This document shows positions 1,000-61,700 of a stretch of 64,000 nt of DNA, one piece after another; position 1 is the stretch's first letter; the number at the start of each line of letters is the position of its first letter. The DNA comes from Hydra vulgaris (lineage: Eukaryota > Cnidaria > Hydrozoa > Anthoathecata > Hydridae): NCBI RefSeq assembly GCF_038396675.1, contig NC_088931.1, positions 73,725,501 through 73,789,500 of the forward strand, read 5' to 3'. The translations under genes and the position numbers were made by a program. The notes under the pieces are model-generated. The model was not told the DNA's origin and ran no database searches. It saw nothing but the letters and a program-made list of their open reading frames with translations.

Positions 1000-1023
1000 T
1001 TAAAATCTAGGGGTGGGAGTTAA

Positions 1024-1685
1024 GGTTAGTTTTAGTCTAACTAAATTTAGTCGACTAACTTTTTAGTCTAACTAAAATTAGTCGACTAACTTTTTAGTCT
1101 AACTGAATTTAGTCGACTAACTTTTTAGTCTAACTAAATTTAGTCGACTAACTTTTTAGCGTAACTAAATTTAGTCGACTAACTTTTTAGTCTAACAAAA
1201 TTTAGTCGACTAAATTTTTAGTCTAACTAAATTTAGTCGACTAACTTTTTAGTCTAACTAAATTCAGTCGACTAACTTTTTAGCGTAACTAAAATTAGTC
1301 GACTAACTTTTTAGCGTAACTAAATTTAGTCGACTAACTTTTTAGTCTAACAAAATTTAGTCGACTAAATTTTTAGTCTAACTAAATTTAGTCGACTAAC
1401 TTTTTAGTCTAACTAAATTCAGTCGACTAACTTTTTAGCGTAACTAAAATTAGTCGACTAACTTTTTAGCGTAACTAAAATTAGTCGACCAACATTTTAG
1501 CGTAAATAAATTAGTCGACTAACTTTTTAGTCTAACTAAGTTTAGTCGACTAATTTTTTAGTCTAACTAAATTTAGTCGACTAACTTTTTAGTCTAACTA
1601 AATTTAGTCGACTAACTTTTTAGCGTAACTAAAATTAGTCGACTAACTTTTTAGTTTGACTAAATTTAGTCGACTAAGTTTTTAA
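1024..1685 (+). repeat. Left subterminal array of ~31-bp repeats
   Basis: About 21 units with the core TTTTTAGTCTAACTAAATT followed by TAGTCGACTAAC. Each unit contains the palindrome TTAGTCGACTAA. Two unit variants alternate, TTTTTAGTCTAACT and TTTTTAGCGTAACT. The array begins about 16 bp from the left end of the hAT element and is the inverse of the array at 9884-10440. Subterminal repeats in hAT elements are commonly transposase binding sites; that role is inferred here. Confidence 0.9.
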
Positions 1686-2000
1686 TTTGAGAAAAATATA
1701 TTGTTACTTTTACCCAAAAAATACTTTTTTTAAATCTTGTTATGTGTTAGTTGTGAAGTGGTTTGAGCGCCATTTTTTTAATAACAAACTGCTGTAAGTT
1801 ACAATTTAGATCTCCATGGCATCTTATTCAAAGTTGATTTTCAGAGTTTTTCAAGTTTTTGGAGAAAATTTTTTTTTCTTAAGTTTGCGAGATATACACT
1901 TGGAGTTTTGTAATAGTAAAAAAACTGTATCCAATTACTCCCCCCTTATTACTAAGTAACTTTCAATGAAAAGCGGTTTAAATCTGGATTTAAATCGCTT

Positions 2001-2056
2001 TAATTAGAAATTGAGATTGAAATCTCAATTAGAAATTGAGATTGAAATCTCAATTT
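2001..2056. repeat. Tandem palindromic repeat
   Basis: Two tandem copies of a ~27-bp unit containing AAATTGAGATTGAAATCTCA. Each unit is itself an inverted repeat (TTGAGATT/AATCTCAA). It lies in the 5' noncoding part of the hAT element. Confidence 0.75.
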
Positions 2057-2258
2057 GTAATTAAAATGAACCATAAACTATTAGAAAAAAAAATGGTGCC
2101 ATATTTTTGAAATGTGTTGTATGCAGAAGCTTTTTCGGATTTCTTTTATATAATACCAGCAATCATTTTTTGAGGTAATAATACCTAATTTATTTTGTTC
2201 TACACTCATAAAACGCAGTTTTTACAGTGACGACAATATGATTGTAGTTGTTAGTAAC

Positions 2259-2350
2259 AATTACACAATATAGAAATAATAAAAAACATTAATTGCGTAA
2301 CAATTTGTTACGCAATTAATGTTTTTTTATTATTTCTATATTGTGTAATT
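2259..2350. repeat. 92-bp near-perfect hairpin
   Basis: The left arm AATTACACAATATAGAAATA... is followed almost without loop by its reverse complement ending at 2350. The arms are about 45 bp and differ only by one A/T in a homopolymer run. It lies about 350 bp upstream of the hAT transposase ORF, inside the element. Confidence 0.92.
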
Positions 2351-2701
2351 GAATATATATCTTGTTCAACTCTCAATTTTTATTTTTTTTTTAATTATTA
2401 TTAAAATGCTAATAACTAATTATGTATTCGGTATAAAGTATCAGCTGTTTTTGGCGGAGTTGTTCTACTAACAAACCAATTTTTATTTAATTCAATGAAA
2501 GAAAATGTGGGGCAATACTAGGTACAAACAAAACATTTTTATTACCTAATTGTCACAAATTATATTACGTATTTTAAATTTCTTAAAAACAATAAATTTT
2601 AATGAATGTCTTTAAGTTGATTTATTTGTCTTAATTCATATTATGTTCATATAATTTCTCAACAAAACAAAATTGAATATGCTGCTCCAATATCTGATTT
2701 G

Positions 2702-4633
2702 ATGAATCTGACGAAGAAAAGATTGGATAAAAGAAAGACTATAGATGAACAAAACCCTGCAGATCATAACGATAGCGAAAGAAGTTCAAGTTTTTCATCC
2801 GGTCAAACAGAAATTGAAGTTGATGCTCAGTCCATTGAAGAAGCAGCTAAAACTACATACGAATATTACTCAATCGAGGAGGAAACATCAAAATGGATAT
2901 GCAATCAATGTAATAGTAACAGACCTAAAAAGTACTCTTGTAAAACATCAAAGAGTATATTAGATTACCATCTTGAACATGATCACAAAATAATAACGCC
3001 GAAAAAAAAACGAACTATGAGTGGCTTGTCAAAAGAAGTTAGCGATAAGATTGATAGAGCTCTTTTAATTTTCATTATTGCCTGTTGTCTTCCATTTATG
3101 TTGGTAGAAAGTAGTGCATTTAAAGAATTTGTTTTGTGTTTAAATCCAAAGTATAAAGTGCCTTGCCGAAAAAAGTTAAGATCTCTTTTAACTGATTTAT
3201 ATCGAGAAAAAGTTGAACTTTTGAAATCAAAATTATTATCAATTAAAGTTTTATCTATTACTACTGACGGATGGACGTCCTGTCAAAACTATAGTTATAT
3301 ATCTGCAACTGCACATTTTATTTCTAACAAAACAAATTTCATCAGTTTCTGTTTGGGCTTTGCATACCTTAATGGCCGCCATGATGCAGATAATTTAAAA
3401 GAGGCTTTGCTAAAAATCGAAGAAAAGTTTATAGTATATGATAAAATAATGATTATAGTATCAGACAACGCCAGTAACGTACGCAACTGTCTAAATTCTT
3501 TAAAAGTTTGTTTAAACATTCAACCAATAAGATGCATGGGACATGTTTTGCAATTAGTTGTTAAAAATGTCATAGATTTAGTTGAAGAAGGTGAAAAAGA
3601 TACTTCGTCTAAATTCTTCTTCATTGCAAGAACATTAACTAAGTGCAGGAAAATTGTTACATCTTTCAATCATTCTTCTCAACTTAATGATTTATTAGAG
3701 GAAAGTCAAACACGACAAGGTGTCGAAAAAAATCACATACTTCATTTGATTCAAGATGTGAAAACTCGTTGGCACTCTACGTTTCTCATGGCAGAGCGAA
3801 TACTTAAGCTTCACTCCTACGTAAAAGATATCTTTAATTCGAAACAACAATACAAAGATATGAGAAAATATTTACTCGATGAAGATGAAATGGTTAACTT
3901 AAAAGAAACGGTAAATGCTTTATTAAGCTTTAATCAAGTAAGTGTTTTACTATCTGGCGATAGGTATGCAACGTGTTCTTTAATTATTCCAAGTATAAAG
4001 TACCTTGAGAAGCAGCTGAGTAAGAATAAAAGTGAGACTACTCCTTTAATTGTAATATTGAAATCACATTTGTTAGAATCTTTACAAACTTACAAAGATT
4101 CATATGAATTAGAGAATAATTCCTTTTTATTGTGTGCCACTTTTTTGGATCCAAATTATAAAAGTTTTCAATTCTTTGAAAAGTACGAAAAAAAGAAATA
4201 TTTAAAAATTGTGAAAGAATTTTTGTCAGATTTTTATCTCTCAAAAAGAGTTGGTGAAATAATTCTAATTAAAAAGGTGATAAAGGAATCAAAAAAATTT
4301 AAGTTGTCATTTGAGGATGAAGAAGATGATTCCGGAAGTGATAGTGACAAAAATGTAACCTTAGATTTAAAAAAAGAAATCAGTGAATATATAAGATTGT
4401 CAGTGCACGAACAAAATGTTTTAGAGTTTTGGCATCAAAATCAATATGTTTTTCCAATATTGTATTGCATTTCAACGATGATTTTATGTACACCTGCTAC
4501 CAGTGCACCAAGTGAGCGCCTTTTTTCTGATGCATTAAACAATTTGTATGCTAAGCGAAACAGGATGATGGCTAAATGTTTTCAAATGTTGATGTTTTTG
4601 TACGAAAATTTGGAATTTTTTAATTTGGTTTAA
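2702..4633 (+). CDS. hAT-family transposase (BED finger, 643 aa)
   Basis: Encodes a DDE transposase of the hAT superfamily, which would act in the nucleus on the ends of its own element. The N-terminus (residues 1-60) is charged and Ser-rich. A BED-type zinc finger follows: W65, C67-x2-C70, H90, H95. The central RNase H-like region shows STTDGWTS-type sequence (ITTDGWTSCQNYS), IIVSDNASNVRNC and CMGHVLQLVVKNV, then DVKTRWHSTFLMAERIL. The C-terminus holds the hAT dimerisation block with TPATSAPSERLFSDA and a final LMFLYENLEFF. The length is normal for the family and there is no stop or frameshift. ATG at 2702 is the first ATG in a frame open from 2621, so a short upstream exon is possible. An intact ORF plus an 8-bp duplication suggests a recent, potentially autonomous insertion; activity is not shown. 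Confidence 0.93.
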   Translation: MNLTKKRLDKRKTIDEQNPADHNDSERSSSFSSGQTEIEVDAQSIEEAAKTTYEYYSIEEETSKWICNQCNSNRPKKYSCKTSKSILDYHLEHDHKIITPKKKRTMSGLSKEVSDKIDRALLIFIIACCLPFMLVESSAFKEFVLCLNPKYKVPCRKKLRSLLTDLYREKVELLKSKLLSIKVLSITTDGWTSCQNYSYISATAHFISNKTNFISFCLGFAYLNGRHDADNLKEALLKIEEKFIVYDKIMIIVSDNASNVRNCLNSLKVCLNIQPIRCMGHVLQLVVKNVIDLVEEGEKDTSSKFFFIARTLTKCRKIVTSFNHSSQLNDLLEESQTRQGVEKNHILHLIQDVKTRWHSTFLMAERILKLHSYVKDIFNSKQQYKDMRKYLLDEDEMVNLKETVNALLSFNQVSVLLSGDRYATCSLIIPSIKYLEKQLSKNKSETTPLIVILKSHLLESLQTYKDSYELENNSFLLCATFLDPNYKSFQFFEKYEKKKYLKIVKEFLSDFYLSKRVGEIILIKKVIKESKKFKLSFEDEEDDSGSDSDKNVTLDLKKEISEYIRLSVHEQNVLEFWHQNQYVFPILYCISTMILCTPATSAPSERLFSDALNNLYAKRNRMMAKCFQMLMFLYENLEFFNLV

Positions 4634-6127
4634 AATTGGTGCAATTTAATCAATGTAATACGGAAATATCTTGTTGTAATAATTATTTTTGAATTTATTT
4701 TATTGTTCTTAAATAAAAACTCTTAAATTTAGAACTTGAACTGTTTTGTTTTAAAAACAATCAAACAAGGTTGCAACATGTTTAAAAAATGATTTTTTAA
4801 AGTTGTTGCTCTCATGTTTGGGACAGGGGGGGACCCCAGAAACTTGAGGGCTTTTATGTTTCCAGGCTACAATTATCGCAATTTTTTGCAAAGTATCATT
4901 ATCCGATTTTCAATTTTGTTTTTAGAAAAACCAATTGCTTAATTAGACTATAAAACTAAGTGCAAAATATGAACGTAGCAAGTCTTCCCGATTCTATGTT
5001 ACTTAAATTTAAGTTTTTTTACATTTGTAAATGTATTTTACATTTTCATGTATTAATTATGACCCACCCAAGTTTATATTTCATAATGAATGATTTCATT
5101 AACCTTACCTTTTCTTTATAATTCTACAAAAAATGGCGTCTTAAATGCGGTTCATTTAAGTTGATATTTCAAACTTACTTTTTAAATAAGATTGCTTCTA
5201 GTTAACTTTAGATCTTACTTTTCACGCTAAAACTCTTATTTTCTAACAAACTATCTACTCCAGCTTGAAGCAATTTAAAGCCAAAAATTGCTGCTGCCTA
5301 GTATACAGCCATATTTAATATAATTAAATGAGTTTATATACGACTAAAAATTAAATTTTTGATACAAAAAAAAAAAAACTATTTTGGGAAAAATATATCG
5401 TAACTTAATTTTTTTTTAACAAAAAGTGAAAATGTACTTTAAAATGATAGATATTCTGCATTTTTTATGTAATTAAAAAGTGATAAGAAAATTTCTGGTT
5501 TGATAAAGCGACCGCTCCCATTTAACAGAATGTTTATTTTACAGTTTTACACGATTTAATTGCGGAAGTTGCATTTTTAAATGCGGACGATGAGCCTCTC
5601 GGTAAATGCTATTAAATGTTTTGCATTTTGAAAAATCTATTAATACGTTTAACATTTGGTATGCATTTTAGAATAAATAAATTGCCGAAGCTTAAATGTA
5701 CTTAAAATGTAACAAACATAACCTAAATACGCCAACCAATTTAAGCGCAATTCTGTGCTTATTTGTCCGTACGTTGAAAAAATGAGAAAATGATAAAGTT
5801 TTAATTATGAATGTAATGATAACGTTGCATATATAAGCTTTCGCATTAAATTTCAAGCTTGTTGAGAAAAATGATGGAAGTTAGCGTTAATAAATTGGTA
5901 CTTCTTATCGCTTATATGAAATTAAATATTTAGAGACTAAGTATATTCGCTAGTATTCAGGGGAAGGGGGGGGGGGAGGTGGTAAGTTGAAAACTGCCGT
6001 AAGAATAATTGCCGATTAAAAATTATACTTGCTGAGTATAAGAATATATATATCGATTGCTGAGATTTGCTAATAATTATAATAACATCTTAATTTGGCG
6101 GATGATCAAACTAAATATCGGTAATAG

Positions 6128-6160
6128 CATGGCCTATAAGAGATGGACTTGCAACCTATT
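6128..6160. repeat. Inverted repeat copy 1 (partner 8314-8348)
   Basis: The segment CATGGCCTATAAGAGATGG... ending CAACCTATT recurs in inverted orientation at 8314-8348 with about three differences. G-rich sequence flanks the outer side of both copies. This may mark the ends of a nested element, but no target duplication was found. Confidence 0.6.
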
Positions 6161-8606
6161 TTTTTTTTTTTTTTTTGCGAACCATGCTCATTGCGCATTG
6201 TTACAAATCTTTTGTTTTAAACAATAGAAATTAAATTATAAAGTCTGTCGGATTCGTCGAAAACTTTTGGTCTCGTCTAACCAGTTACATCAACTTCCTT
6301 TTGGTTATTCAAGATAACAGCAATAGATAGCGATTCCACGGCTCAACGAAAAACATTTGACGTTTGAAAAAAAACACGTAACTTTCATGAACTTTACTCT
6401 CTTATATCTTTTTGTGTGCTTAAGCAAACACCTTAAGGTTTTTTGCATCAATTAGTGTTACTCAACCTCTTTCCAGTCATATATAGAAAGTACTATGGTT
6501 TATATGGCTTCATTTAAATTTTATCCATATCTTAAGACCACTTTTAAGAAAAAAGCTCGAAACGGGAACATTTTTTTAAAACAAAGCTTTTAGAGGTTAG
6601 GATTCCTTAGTACCAAAACACATCCAATTTTTATAAAACTTTCCGTATACATTAAAAAAGGGATGACGAATCAAATGGAATGTGCACACTTTTTAACTTT
6701 TATACATAAATTTTTAGTTCTTAGCGTTTCAAAACTTCAAGGTTTATTTTTATAGAAAAAAAAAAGTGTTTTTTAAAAGTGTCCAGGTGGAAATTGCAAG
6801 TTTACTCTTTCCTCTTTTTATAACAAGTATTTATTTATGTTTTCTTGAAGAATAGGTTCTAAGGATTTGTATATAGAAACTATGTATATATATATAACTA
6901 TCTTCCTTCGCATATTTTATGACGTTTTTTGTTTTGATTTTGCGTGACATAATGCAAATTTTCGGTGCCATAACAATGCAAATTTTCCATACTCAAGCCC
7001 TATACCTTTCGTCAAAAAATCATCAATTATTGCGCTACAAAAAATTCAATAACTTTAGATCCGCTTAACTTCAAAGGCCGAATGACCCCTCGTTTTTTAA
7101 GTCAAGTCAAGCTCTATACAATGATATAAGTTACATATGTTTATTTGAATAATAAAAAAATCGTCAAGAATGGCTACAATAGAATCAGATTTTAAGTTTA
7201 ATTTTATATAGCTAGATATTCCTTATATTTTAAGAAATAACACTGATAATAATATAGAAATTGAGATCATTTACTTAACTACTTTAGTACATGTATAACT
7301 AGAGATATAACAAATAATACAAAATATCAACTAGTTTTTAGCTACTTAGAGAATATTGGTTTCATGTCCAGGGAACTACACCATCTACTACATTGCTGTA
7401 GACTTATTGTTTATGAATGTTATAGAATTTTTTATTTTTATGTTTAACAACAGAAATATATACAGTTACGGATAAATAACTCATACATAAAATGAATATA
7501 AATACAATAAAGAAAAAAATAATTTGTCACAGTTTTAAAGAATTTAGCAAAGCCAATTTATGGCAAACCGCAAGAATAACTAAGTATTTAATATTAACAT
7601 AGCATGATTTACCAGCTATATATAAACTAATTTTTATTTGACAAAAACAAATGGGTTATTATCTGCCTTGACTAACTTGAATAACTTTTTAAAAGGTTTT
7701 GCATTATCAAACGAGTTATAAAAAAGCCCATTAGAAAATACACCTACTAAAAAACAATGCTCAGTGGAATATATATTATGGAGCTTATAGAGTAGTCGAG
7801 GCAAAAAATGGCGACATATCGGAAATAATACTCAAAAAATACACAAAACTAAGGCTGGTGAATGAAGGACCAAGGAGTTGCATGAAACCAGACCTTGACT
7901 AAAAATTTTATTTAAGCATTTTTACTTTTCGCTTTACTTTTTTTAGTCATTTTAAAATTATCTTTACAGATCTATTTTATTATTGATGGAACTTTGTTTA
8001 CACGAAAAAAGTTCCCAAATTTACAAATGTTTATCTTGGAAAAATGATGAAAATCTGTTCGTGCCGACAACTGATTTCCTTTTCCTTGGTGTAATTTGTT
8101 TAGTAATTTGTCAACACGTGAAGTAGTTACTTATCCTGAACAGTCTTATTAAACAAATGCTATAAAATTTAAACTAATACCACGTGATCAGAGTTTCTGT
8201 TTAAAAACTAAGGGCAGCCATTTTAATAGATTTTTTTGTTGACGGGTGAAAATTTAGAGTTTGTCGGAAACTCGCATGGCTCGCTAATTTCTGCGGCCTC
8301 TTTGATGTAAAACAATAGGTTGCACGTCCATCTCTTATAGTTCCATGGTAATAGATAGTGAGTGTCATACCCCCAACACCACCTTCCCTTCTCGCTGGCT
8401 CCAATACTATATATCACTAATATGAAAATGAAAATTTATAGGCAATGTATAATAAAATCCAATTTTAGGAATGTTACTTATCTGGGATAATTTTTCCTAT
8501 GTTGCTATTTTAGGCCTTTGAAATAGGGTTGTTAACCGAAAGGTTTCAAAGATTTCTGTAAAAAAATCTTTCAAAAGGGTATATACAATTACTAATTGTA
8601 ATACTA

Positions 8607-8759
8607 TATTATTTGCGAAAGTTACTTTGACAAATTTTAATGCTTCTATATATTCGTTACGAATAAAAATAAATACTAATTGTCAATTAGTATTTATTTT
8701 TATTCGTAACGAATATATAGAAGCATTAAAATATGTCAAAGTAACTTTCGCAAATAATA
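8607..8759. repeat. 153-bp hairpin with ~75-bp arms
   Basis: The left arm (from TATTATTTGCGAAAGTTACT) and right arm are reverse complements with a single visible mismatch and almost no loop (TAATTGTCAATTA centre). It lies in the noncoding part of the hAT element. It could be a foldback MITE or a template-switch product. Confidence 0.93.
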
Positions 8760-9404
8760 CTTCTGAAAATTAGACTTTCGCAAGTTGCTATTTCAAATAA
8801 TGCTCTTCCAAAACTTCCAAAAGTTTCACTTTCGGAAGTAGCACTTGAGAAATGAGCGCTTTTAATAACTACGTTTCGAAATCTATAAAGGAAGTTTATT
8901 CGCCTAACTGCAAGAAATGTGAAAATAAAATATCTGTATATATCAAACTGTTTGTAATGAAACTTTATCTTCAGTATAGCAACATATTAAATTTTTACTA
9001 GTTTGTTTTTTCAAATAATGATCAAAAAATTTATTTCGAAAGGAAAATTTTCGATAAATCCACTTGAAGAACGGTCACTTACGGAAGAAAACTTGAAATT
9101 CGTCATAAAAACAAGATTAAAATGTTCCATTTAAAAAAATCCGTTCAATGAACTAAGTAATTAAAAGCTCATTACTCATAAGTGTCAATTATCGCGCATG
9201 CAAATTTTTATGAAGTAAAAAACTGATATTATTTTTTAACTGAGTCCTTTCGGTAGGTTTCAAAAATCTTCTTTCGAAATGAATCGATTAGCAAGTTTCT
9301 TTTCGCTTGTGATTCTTGCGAAAATTTTATTTTTCGTATATTGCTTTACCAGCGGCGTGGGCAGGATTTTTTTGATGTTTCAGATATGACACTTTTAGGC
9401 ATCG

Positions 9405-9500
9405 TGCGAATGTTGTTAAGTCAAATTAATTAATTAAGTCAAAAAAATTAATTAATTAAGTCAAAAAAAATAATTAATTAAGTCAAAAAAAAATCAAGAA
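9405..9500. repeat. Short tandem repeat (AATTAATTAAGTCAAA)
   Basis: Three copies of AATTAATTAAGTCAAAAAAA-type units, flanked on both sides by GAATGTTGTTAAGTCAAAT, so the whole block is bracketed by a ~20-bp direct repeat. Confidence 0.8.
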
Positions 9501-9883
9501 TGTTGTTAAGTCAAATGAAAATGTTTCTCAAAAAAATTGCGGTGATTGGAGCGTGAGAACAAAAATACCCCCAACAAGTTGGCTATCCCAACCCCGAATT
9601 AGACGTTAAATTAAACTGCAGAATGTTAATTAAACGTTCAAAGGGTGCCTTTTTTAGATTCCGTGCCCATTGGGTGTTAATAAACAGTTGCAACAACCGC
9701 ATTGGTAGTTGTCTCAGAGCTGGGACAAAATTCTAATAATCAAAGTTGATTTAATACGTTACGAATTTGATTTGACGTGCCCCTATGAACCATATTTGGG
9801 ACATTCAACCGCCACAATAATGTGCCATCGTGTGTGAAATATTCATGGCTTCATAGGTTATTCAGTTTTTAGTACTGAAGCTT

Positions 9884-10440
9884 GTTTTAATCGACTAATT
9901 TTAGTTACGCTAAAAATTTAGTCGACTAAATTTAGTTACGCTAAAAAGTTAGTCGACTAAATTTAGTTAGACTAAAAAGTTAGTCGACTAAATTTAGTTA
10001 CGCTAAAAAGTTAGTCGACTAATTTATTTACGCTAAAAAGTTAGTCGACTAATTTTAGTTACGCTAAAAAGTTAGTTGACTAAATTTAGTTAGACTAAAA
10101 AGTTAGTCGACTAATTTTAGTTAGACTAAAAAGTTAGTCGACTAAATTTAGTTAGACTAAAAAGTTAGTCCACTAAATTTAGTTAGACTAAAAAGTTAGT
10201 CGACTAATTTATTTACGCTAAAAAGTTAGCCGACTAACTTTTTAGCGTAACTAAATTTAGTCGACTAACTTTTTAGTCTAACTAAAACTAGTCGACTAAA
10301 TTTAGTTAGACTAAAAAGTTAGTCGACTAATTTTAGTTAGACTAAAAAGTTAGTCGACTAAATTTAGTGAGACTAAAAAGTTAGTCGACTAATTTTAGTT
10401 AGACTAAAAAGTTAGTTGGGTAATTTTAGTTACGGTTTTT
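9884..10440 (-). repeat. Right subterminal array of ~31-bp repeats, inverted
   Basis: About 18 units reading AGTCGACTAAATTTAGTTAG then ACTAAAAAGTT, exactly the reverse complement of the left-array unit. A short internal block (about 10,230-10,290) reads in the opposite direction, so one or two units have been flipped. The array ends about 45 bp from the right end of the hAT element. Confidence 0.9.
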
Positions 10441-10502
10441 TTAGTTAAGTTAGTTACAATTTTTAGTGTTGGTCACAACACTATTAAAATCTAACTCCAA
10501 TA

Positions 10503-10680
10503 TCTTTATTGATATTGTTGTACGATAATTCCTGCAACTTTATTGTTACTGTTGTATAGTAACTCCTGCAACTTTAGTTTTACTGTTGAATGATAATTCC
10601 TGCAACTTTATTGCTACTATTGTATGGTAATACCTGCAACTTTAATGTTACTGTTGTATGATAATTCCTGCAACATTATT
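10503..10680. repeat. Minisatellite of ~42-bp units
   Basis: Four to five diverged units sharing ATTCCTGCAACTTTATTG and TTACTGTTGTATGATAA. It starts just outside the hAT right target duplication. Confidence 0.8.
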
Positions 10681-11562: not shown

Positions 11563-57935
<46,373 letters not shown>

Positions 57936-58756: not shown

Positions 58757-61700
58757 TGAAATTATTATTATTATTCAGTGATCAAATATAAATGTTTGAA
58801 AAAAAGTTATATCGCTCCTCAGTTTTTTACCATCTGACGTTCTAGTTTATGGTTGTGGCCTCTTAAAATATACTTATCTTTACTTTTTGAAAATTTTTAC
58901 GGGACAACAAAACTGACAAGCTCGAGTTTACGAGTAATTTTGAATTGCTTGATAAGATCTGTTCTTTTGCGGCGTTCTTCAAGAGTTGTTAAACCAAGCC
59001 GTTGGAGTCGATCTTCATAGGACAGGTGTTTAATAGTCGATATTGTTTTTGTTGCTCGATGTTGGACTTGCTAGAGAATGGCAATGTCTGATTTTAAATG
59101 CGGTGACCAGGCTTGTACAGCATACTCAAGATGGGGGCAAATGTAAGTGAGATACAGAGTGTGCCATAAATAAAAACTGCGACTGCAAAATGTTTTTTTG
59201 AGTCGCCCTAGCATTCTATTAGCTACTGATGCGGCTGACTCTATTTGCGGTCTGACATTAAGGTCATTCGAGACCATCACACCAAGGTCTCTTTCGACTG
59301 TGGTTTCTTCGAGAGGACGACGGGTGCCGTCGACGTTAGACATAGAGTATTTGTACGTTGACTTATTACATCCGCGTCCAACATGCATTACTTTGCATTT
59401 CTCAATGTTGAAATGCAAGAGCCAAATATGTGACCATTCCACTGCTCTGTCAACGTCATTTTGGAGAGTGATGTTGTCCAACTCCTTTTTAATTATCCCT
59501 ATTATTTTGCTGTCGTCGAAAAACAGTTTCATATGATGAGTAATTCTGTCCGGCAGGTCGTTTACAAAGATTATGAATAGCAATGGGCCCAAGACGGAGC
59601 CTTAAGGCACTCCACTAGTGACTGCTTTCCATTCAGAAGTAATGCCATTTATAACCACTTGTTGACATCGATTGCTTAGCTGCAATCCAGTCAACGAGAG
59701 CGCCTTGAATACCATACTCTCAGCTTATGAAGAAGGCGTTTATGTGGTCTTTGCAAAATCTGTGTAAATGTCTACTGCGTGTCTGCAGTGAGTTGCTTCT
59801 GTCATGATGTCCCAAGTTTCTAAAACGTTTGATACGCATTCCTTACGATGAACAAAGCCATGCTGGTTTGGAGAAATTAGACCATTAGCAACGCAGTGTT
59901 CCATTATTCTTTTTTGTAAAATACTTTCCATAATTTTGCAAGGTATGAAAGTGAGCGAGACTGGCCTACTCCCCTTCTTGAAAATAGGTGTTACATTTGA
60001 TTTTTTTCACAAATCAGGAACTACACCAGTTGCAAGCGAGCACTTATAGATAGGCGAAAGAGGCTTGGCAAAGGTAGCTGAACATTTACTAAGGACCCGT
60101 GGATGTAAGCCATCGTAGCCGGTTGATTTTCTTTCATCCAGGTTGTTTAGGCATTTTTGTACTATATCGATAGAGAAACTTGCTGGATCGATGACACAAA
60201 CTGCTTCAGTACGACTTTCAAAGCCTGGCATTAAACCTTCGGGCTCTAAAACAAAGACTGATTAAAAATAGTTATTTAACGATGCGCATATATCGCCGGT
60301 ATCAGTTGTGATGTTGCTATTGACTGTTTCAAGCGATGTAATGTTGTTACTGATGCTCTGCTTGCTTCTTACATATGCATGTAAGCGTTTAGGGTTGCTT
60401 TCGGAATCCCTGACAAGTAGCTCTTCGTACTTCTGCCTGCCAGCTTTGACCATTTTTTTAACTTTTTTGCAGGCAGTGCAATGCGATACTTTGAGAAATT
60501 TCTGCGTATCTTGACCTGCATTAATGTACTTGGCCTATGAGGTGCGTTTAGCTTTGATTGCCTCAATAAGTTCTGGTGTTACCCATTGCTCCTGTTTTTC
60601 TGTAAAGGGAGTGGTAGTTGACAAAATGTGTAGGTTAGTGGCTTCATTGTACACGTTTGCTAGAAGCTGGTAATCATCGTTTGCATTTAGTCCAGTGAAT
60701 ACTGTTTCCTATTCAACAGCTACAATATATGCTGATATTGCTGCGTAGTTTTTTTCCAAATGAGTAGAGGTTTTAGCGGCAAAGTAGACGAGTTGTTGAG
60801 GCATGCAACAGCAAATTGACCTTCGATGAAGCAGTGTGCTTGGCCCATTGGAGTGTCACCAAGAAAATCACCTTGTTTAATGAAGATTACACAGTCTGGC
60901 TCATTTGTTATAATAAGATCGAGTGTGCTAGTAGGCTCAACATGTTGACTACTACAGTAGGTTGGGAATGTGATAAGCTGAGTTAAGTGACATTCATCAA
61001 GACGCTTCTGGAACCTGATGTTGCCTTGACACTCAACTCTCACGTGAGCAACAGTTGCAATGCCGCCGTTAACTTCGATAGACTCAAAAAATAGAGGGCT
61101 AGGTGAAACTGTAGAAGCATTGGTCTTGTATCGGTTTTATTTTCGCTTTAGTTATTGGTCTAGGACGTCTAGTTGGCAGTGGAGATTTCTGAGTTAGGAG
61201 CGGCTGTGCGGCTAGCGTAGTCTGACAGAGCTCTGGCTGGGGATGAAAATACGTAGCACTGATTGGACGTTGATTCCATGACATCGATGCAACAGATGCG
61301 ACCTGTTCTTCGATGTATAACATTTCGAAACAAATTATCGAGAATGTTAGCAGTGGCAAGTTTGTCGTGGTGGTGTTAAACTCGGTTTGTTGCTCTGGCG
61401 TTCTGTCTTCGCGTACGTAGATACCCTTGTATATCTCTTGTTTGTGGTGTGGGCATTTTTTGAGTATTTCTGCTCGAGATGAAAGATTTGATAACGAAAC
61501 CTGGATAATGTTCGAGTTTGACAATTTTGTTTTGCTTTTGCTCGATTTGAGGCGGTTAACACGTGCGATACCAGTAGTATCCTCTAATCCTGTTGCTACA
61601 AAAAAATCCTCAACAAGCTTTTTATAGTCTACAGTACTAGACTTATTAAGACCGACTACAATGACATTTAACTCGCAACTTTGAATATTTTTATTTTGAG

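Follow-up and report, generated by a model that had tools for sequence, protein, structure and literature searches.

How many subterminal motifs a hAT transposon needs, and why, is an unsettled question. It is raised by a 64,000-nucleotide stretch of the Hydra vulgaris genome (contig NC_088931.1, positions 73,725,501 to 73,789,500; called here the window), in which a hAT-superfamily element carries two mirrored arrays of 30-31-bp palindromic units, one near each end. The analysis of these arrays in the window and across the genome leads us to regard them as probably being tandem-amplified subterminal repeats of the transposon, whose half-sites are putative binding sites of its transposase. The features concerned are listed below in window positions.

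1000..1007, no strand: left target-site duplication (TSD) TTAAAATC, identical to 10484-10491
1008..10483, forward: hAT-superfamily transposon of 9,476 bp, recognised by its TSD, tips, transposase and many copies
1008..1046, forward: left tip, TAGGGGTGGGAGTTAAGG plus 21 bp, with 132 genome-wide matches at no more than one mismatch
1030..1684, forward: left array of 21 units, all 31 bp long except one of 30 bp; 21.2 copies by Tandem Repeats Finder (TRF)
1140..1449, forward: exact tandem duplication of a five-unit block (1140-1294 = 1295-1449, 155/155 bases identical; barcode DE.ARDE.AR)
2702..4633, forward: hAT transposase open frame, 643 amino acids (aa) from the first in-frame ATG (PF05699, E 1.1e-15; Hermes the best fold match)
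2900..2986, forward: zinc finger Cx2Cx19Hx4H, a candidate BED-like DNA-binding domain
9887..10432, reverse: right array, mirrored, about 17 units (17.7 copies by TRF; 17 full units when split at the palindrome)
10226..10287, forward: local inversion, two right-array units in the left-array orientation
10433..10483, reverse: right tip, reading inward TAGTGTTGTGACC..., with single ACTAA half-sites; 146 genome-wide matches
10484..10491, no strand: right TSD TTAAAATC

Palindromic arrays inside the tips of a hAT element

The element has the features of the hAT superfamily. The 8-bp sequence TTAAAATC flanks it on both sides, its tips form short terminal inverted repeats (TIRs) that share 8 of their first 11 bases and 9 of 18, and a short motif is repeated inside both tips. 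The encoded protein contains the C-terminal hAT dimerisation domain with a score above the cut-off, and its Hermes-like RNase-H fold was best matched by Hermes in both Foldseek and VIA-align, the mean predicted local distance difference test (pLDDT) score of the structure model being only 58. Residues D216, D282, C305, H308 and W384 are invariant in 10 aligned rows, in several of which the part containing the glutamate is missing; both cysteines and both histidines of the zinc finger are nearly invariant in 10 aligned rows. No THAP family was present among the Pfam matches of the protein at E 1, so that it does not qualify as a transposase of the P type found in Galileo and foldback elements. 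Searches by sequence found no solved structure for the transposase, and those in viral contigs gave no usable match.

The element is repeated throughout the genome (911.5 Mb in 15 contigs searched). Left tips with at most one mismatch numbered 132, compared to 1 for the control, and right tips, sought with a consensus of the first 20 bases that differs from the window at 1 position, numbered 146, compared to 0 for the reversed control. Among the approximately 100 tips listed for each kind, 55 convergent left-right pairs lay within 25 kb, 28 of them spaced 8-10 kb, together with two left-left pairs. The TSD was identical in 20/26 tip pairs, differed by one base in 3 and by 4 or 5 bases in the other 3. 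When the two ends of an element were counted apart, T was favoured at TSD position 2 (70/103 ends) and A at position 7 (68/103).

Splitting at the palindrome gives the unit TTAGT-CG-ACTAA, CTTT, TTAGT-CTA-ACTAA, AT, or a variant in which the second palindrome is TTAG-CGTA-ACTAA. Each unit contains two palindromes, both derived from the half-site TTAGT/ACTAA and having CG and CTA as their cores, and arithmetic on the unit places the palindrome centres alternately 16.5 and 14.5 bp apart. Three turns of B-DNA take about as many base pairs as one unit, and equivalent sites would thus lie on the same face of the DNA. Exact TTAGT or ACTAA half-sites number 70 in the left array and 58 in the right one. 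The 12-bp palindrome TTAGTCGACTAA occurs 41 times in the window with up to two mismatches, compared to 3.2 times (standard deviation 2.0, maximum 10) in 100 shuffles, and 34 of the 37 GTCGAC sites of the window fall inside the arrays.

The preliminary description of this locus had counted about 21 left and 18 right units as exact inverses of each other at the two ends of the element. The left count holds, whereas only 17 full units were counted on the right (17.7 copies by TRF); the arrays are indeed present near each end but are subterminal rather than terminal, the element extending from 1008 to 10483. Nor do they mirror each other exactly: their inverted match extends over 324 nt at most, at 94%, the order of their units is not the same, and the units at 10226-10287 are reversed. 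The two unit variants described were recovered, AGTCTAACT occurring 11 times in the left array and 9 times in the right and AGCGTAACT 6 and 5 times, and both are common in the ends sampled elsewhere. The suggestion that they mark two binding modes finds no support, as they are mixed in both arrays.

To follow the arrays across the genome, 40 right ends (consecutive exact matches among those listed, from C3:20.1M to C9:4.9M) and 40 left ends (26 partners of these right ends and 14 unpaired) were fetched. The array starts at a fixed place: the distance from tip to anchor is 67 bp in 36/40 right ends and 46 bp in 34/40 left ends. The number of units counted from this anchor varies from 2 to at least 19 at right ends and from 0 to at least 22 at left ends, the maxima being limited by the length of the stretch fetched. 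Among the first places listed for the unit core, 21/21 clusters adjoin a tip as judged by eye. Complete lists for two additional marker patterns gave 51 and 38 clusters, 87/89 of which have a terminus or a transposase match nearby, a tip being accepted when its alignment score exceeded that of 30 shuffles and one of its first three bases was reached. The arrays thus belong to the element. Unit searches in viral and genome collections gave no usable match.

Two array fragments, at C5:9275555 and C14:8106213, have no recognisable tip in the fetched stretch and no listed transposase match nearby; they are either degraded copies or true escapes.

Half-sites as putative transposase binding sites

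With a letter assigned to each unit variant, a common order resembling BGADE...CLHNACK(P/V) emerges in many left arrays, and one resembling IQBADEBMAOBAJFDADC in many right arrays; block duplications and losses are seen within these shared orders. Such a shared order with internal block changes indicates that the arrays move together with the element and evolve in steps of whole units, and makes the ordered variants a readable record of array change. Left and right arrays have many variants in common, which points to a common origin or to unit exchange, and each also has private ones.

The variation among units bears on whether the half-sites are maintained. In a set of 992 units kept at a spacing of 27-34 bp, a length of 31 bp was found in 792 and one of 30 bp in 190. 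The 30-bp units comprise 90 with one arm of the second palindrome changed, 58 with intact arms and a shorter core and 42 others, and the T run between the palindromes is five long in 789/797 cases with an intact GACTAAC before it and AG after it. In 723 units of the 31-bp type, the first units of arrays being left out, the median variation was 1.0% for the arms and 5.7% for the core and spacer positions (Mann-Whitney p=0.04). The arms contributed 11/29 of the variants found in at least five ends, compared to 16/21 of those found in one end (Fisher p=0.010). These comparisons provide moderate evidence, drawn from sequence variation, that the half-sites may be under selection.

We propose that the TTAGT/ACTAA half-site would be bound by the N-terminal zinc finger of the transposase and that fingers would pair on each palindrome. 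Each end could gather many transposase subunits, perhaps cooperatively, ahead of synapsis and cleavage of the two tips. The arrays would lengthen and shorten through duplication and deletion of whole units within the array, and transposition would carry them to new places. This reading is the best of those considered since the arrays are tied to the termini, the palindromic nature of the half-sites recalls the Hermes BED site (PMC10368747) and the transposase carries a Cx2Cx19Hx4H finger.

Several results weigh against it. The zf-BED profile (PF02892) gave no match in the window protein even at E=1 and was matched in 3/10 relatives, with a best E of 0.016. The constraint tests are weak, the units not being independent; the Fisher p value shifts with the cut-off (0.10 at three or more ends, 0.053 at 4, 0.020 at 8 and 0.013 at 10), and a strict TTAG/CTAA arm set gives p=0.085. 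The ACTAA arm of the second palindrome is itself variable, by 6-7% at two positions, and the commonest 30-bp type (90/190) has an arm of this palindrome changed. Mutating the inner putative sites of Hermes did not dramatically reduce transposition (PMC10368747); since these sites seem dispensable, dozens of units may not be needed. Finally, matching TSDs flank some copies that have just 3-5 units at an end, in one case 5 at both, although such copies may have lost units after insertion. The last three of these observations would also be expected if the arrays were largely neutral minisatellites, that is, if a short segment with real near-tip sites had been expanded by slippage or unequal exchange and the extra, functionless units were hitch-hiking. 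The range from 0 to at least 22 units per copy and the visible duplication of a whole block also suit this explanation, but we consider it unlikely, given that the arms vary less than the spacers and cores and that the 30-31-bp period is kept in 982/992 units. It is also at odds with the longer left arrays of the younger of the two orientation classes described below (median 504 compared to 210 bp, n=24 and 9, p=0.0003), the right arrays differing in the same direction (505 compared to 402 bp, n=17 and 7, p=0.16); decay of the older arrays could explain this gap equally well.

A role of the arrays in controlling the transposase gene or in host chromatin, through autorepression, nucleation of silencing or a supply of small RNAs, rather than in end recognition, was also considered. 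In the window, about 1 kb separates the left array from the gene downstream of it, and read-through of mirrored arrays could yield hairpin RNA; nothing more specific in favour of this role was found. The presence of arrays at both ends, their fixed distance from the tip and their mirrored polarity form the pattern expected for end recognition, which renders a regulatory or chromatin role in place of end recognition very improbable. Least credible of all is the capture by chance of ordinary satellite DNA: the arrays are tandem, AT-rich and variable in copy number, but the termini account for the unit-core count and only 2/89 marker clusters are left unexplained by a nearby terminus or transposase match. 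Arrays lying mainly outside hAT elements, which would have pointed to a satellite, were therefore not found, and a satellite independent of the mobile element is rejected for this assembly.

The hAT transposases known so far bind motifs that recur just inside the tips of their elements. Comparison with known systems places the Hydra arrays within this known kind of hAT subterminal repeat, which they take further in their regularity, palindromy, phasing and large number at both ends. Hermes BED domains are reported to bind cooperatively to a quasi-palindrome of AAGT and AAGC (PMC10368747). The Hydra element resembles Hermes in having short motifs arranged, as in STR1-STR2, in a quasi-palindrome just inside the tip, in the fold of its transposase and in its 8-bp TSD favouring T at position 2 and A at position 7, a preference reported for Hermes (PMC8721813). 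Hermes, however, has a single palindrome, at the left end only, and up to eight other putative sites per end, whereas in the Hydra element palindromes are arranged in regular tandem series at each end. The goldfish hAT element Tgf2 has a finger of identical Cx2Cx19Hx4H spacing and is reported to carry 17 and 18 repeats at its ends (PMC4890040). The proposal made for this locus, that the number and regularity of the units far surpass those of usual subterminal motifs, is thus only partly borne out; what does stand out is their strict 30/31-bp tandem order with up to four half-sites per unit, the Tgf2 repeats being described as haphazard. In Herves, another hAT element, the transposase is reported to bind a repeated short subterminal motif (PMC3143072), but this motif is CG/AATTCAT and lies in three 100-bp left-end repeats.

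Outside the hAT superfamily, Galileo (P superfamily) and the Tetris foldback elements are likewise described as having tandem repeats inside both inverted ends, and in Galileo transposase sites lie in these repeats, some of which carry extra transposase (THAP) sites (PMC3688188, PMC4079207, PMC4168063). The Galileo transposase is of another type, the repeats of Galileo and Tetris are long (about 140-220 bp), and Tetris repeats also form satellite arrays, which the Hydra units hardly do. Muta1 and other Aedes Mutator-like elements share short subterminal tandem repeats of variable number (PMC5225508), but they belong to the Mutator superfamily and their repeats, as described there, are of 9-15 bp and lie within long TIRs.

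Among the papers listed in searches of an open-access library, none was seen to describe arrays of this kind for a Hydra hAT element. The arrays provide, in a laboratory animal, a natural series of otherwise similar elements whose near-identical units number from 0 to at least 22 at each end, which makes the effects of site number, palindromy and helical phase directly testable.

Inversion of the interior between the tips

The most surprising part of the analysis is that in some copies the interior is inverted relative to the tips. The sequences just inside the left and right arrays of the window (called here L-interior and R-interior) were used to type 103 ends. Left tips faced the L-interior in 24 cases and the R-interior in 18, while right tips faced the R-interior in 17 and the L-interior in 8. 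No end matched both, and 36/103 ends could not be typed, the array filling the fetched stretch or the interior being too diverged. Orientation was also read from the gene: 61 of the 69 transposase copies examined lie near listed tips. The gene has the orientation of the window in 46/61 (27 enclosed by a tip pair, 19 read from a single tip) and the opposite orientation in 13/61 (6 enclosed, 7 from a single tip); the remaining 2/61 are in left-left elements, where orientation is meaningless. Extra tips, whose coordinates were compared by hand, added two copies to each orientation class and left four copies without a tip.

Among the six gene copies at 76% identity or less, five were readable and all five have the opposite orientation. 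The R-interior tree groups the window-type copies into a single clade (100/98), nested within the others. The L-interior tree requires two changes of orientation, as does the gene tree, in which a single window-type clade was not rejected (approximately unbiased test, p-AU 0.23). The ancestral orientation was therefore probably opposite to that of the window, and the simplest history is one or two inversions followed by expansion. Many independent flips of the interior are not supported, as orientation is clustered on the trees and one or two changes suffice.

Since only the arrays separate the tips from the interior, the breakpoints must lie in the arrays or at their edges. Long mirrored repeats such as these are natural places for crossing over, and we infer that a crossover within the mirrored arrays produced the inversion; the end arrays may thus have been substrates for inverting the interior of the element. 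The unit variants support such a crossover weakly and do not prove it. A crossover would lead one to expect left-type diagnostic units where a right tip faces the L-interior, and 14/17 in such arrays are of this type; however, so are 4/6 in the arrays of left tips facing the R-interior, contrary to the prediction, and the two proportions do not differ (Fisher p=0.58).

It is conceivable, though we put it forward only tentatively, that the mirrored arrays double as an inversion switch and that the phased arrays assemble a transposase filament at each end. We know of no hAT element in which such a filament serves end recognition. If the proposal is correct, recombination between arrays turned the whole interior, including the transposase gene, the inverted lineage became dominant, and the arrays allowed a cut-and-paste transposon to remodel itself while keeping its ends.

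Other features of the element and the window

The two elements with a left tip at both ends lie at C1:52481286/52485975 and C12:18275832/18285499. In both, the flanks are inverted copies of the same sequence (an alignment of 586 bp at C1 and the same 30 bp at C12), and the flank sequence is also alike between the two loci; the inverted duplication itself seems to have been copied.

The window copy lacks, at 2671-2677, about 137 bp that four other copies have, and in three of those four the segment encodes a conserved transposase start. The stretch of about 5 kb that separates the transposase from the right array (4640-9880) contains no open frame of at least 80 aa with a start codon, yet it is about 93-99% identical in other copies. 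This region includes an inverted repeat, 6110-6165 / 8309-8363, which is possibly an old passenger element. A recent nested insertion at about 6.1-8.4 kb is rejected: other copies have the same region, which was thus part of the element as it spread. Near-perfect hairpin (palindromic) segments at 2258-2351 and 8607-8759 are matched in other copies too.

Immediately outside the right TSD lies a 34-bp tandem repeat of 5.2 copies (10504-10680). Elsewhere in the window, three open frames at 42181-42531 (reverse), 40088-40558 (forward) and 59071-59601 (reverse) resemble, by eye, a tyrosine-kinase exon and reverse-transcriptase fragments.
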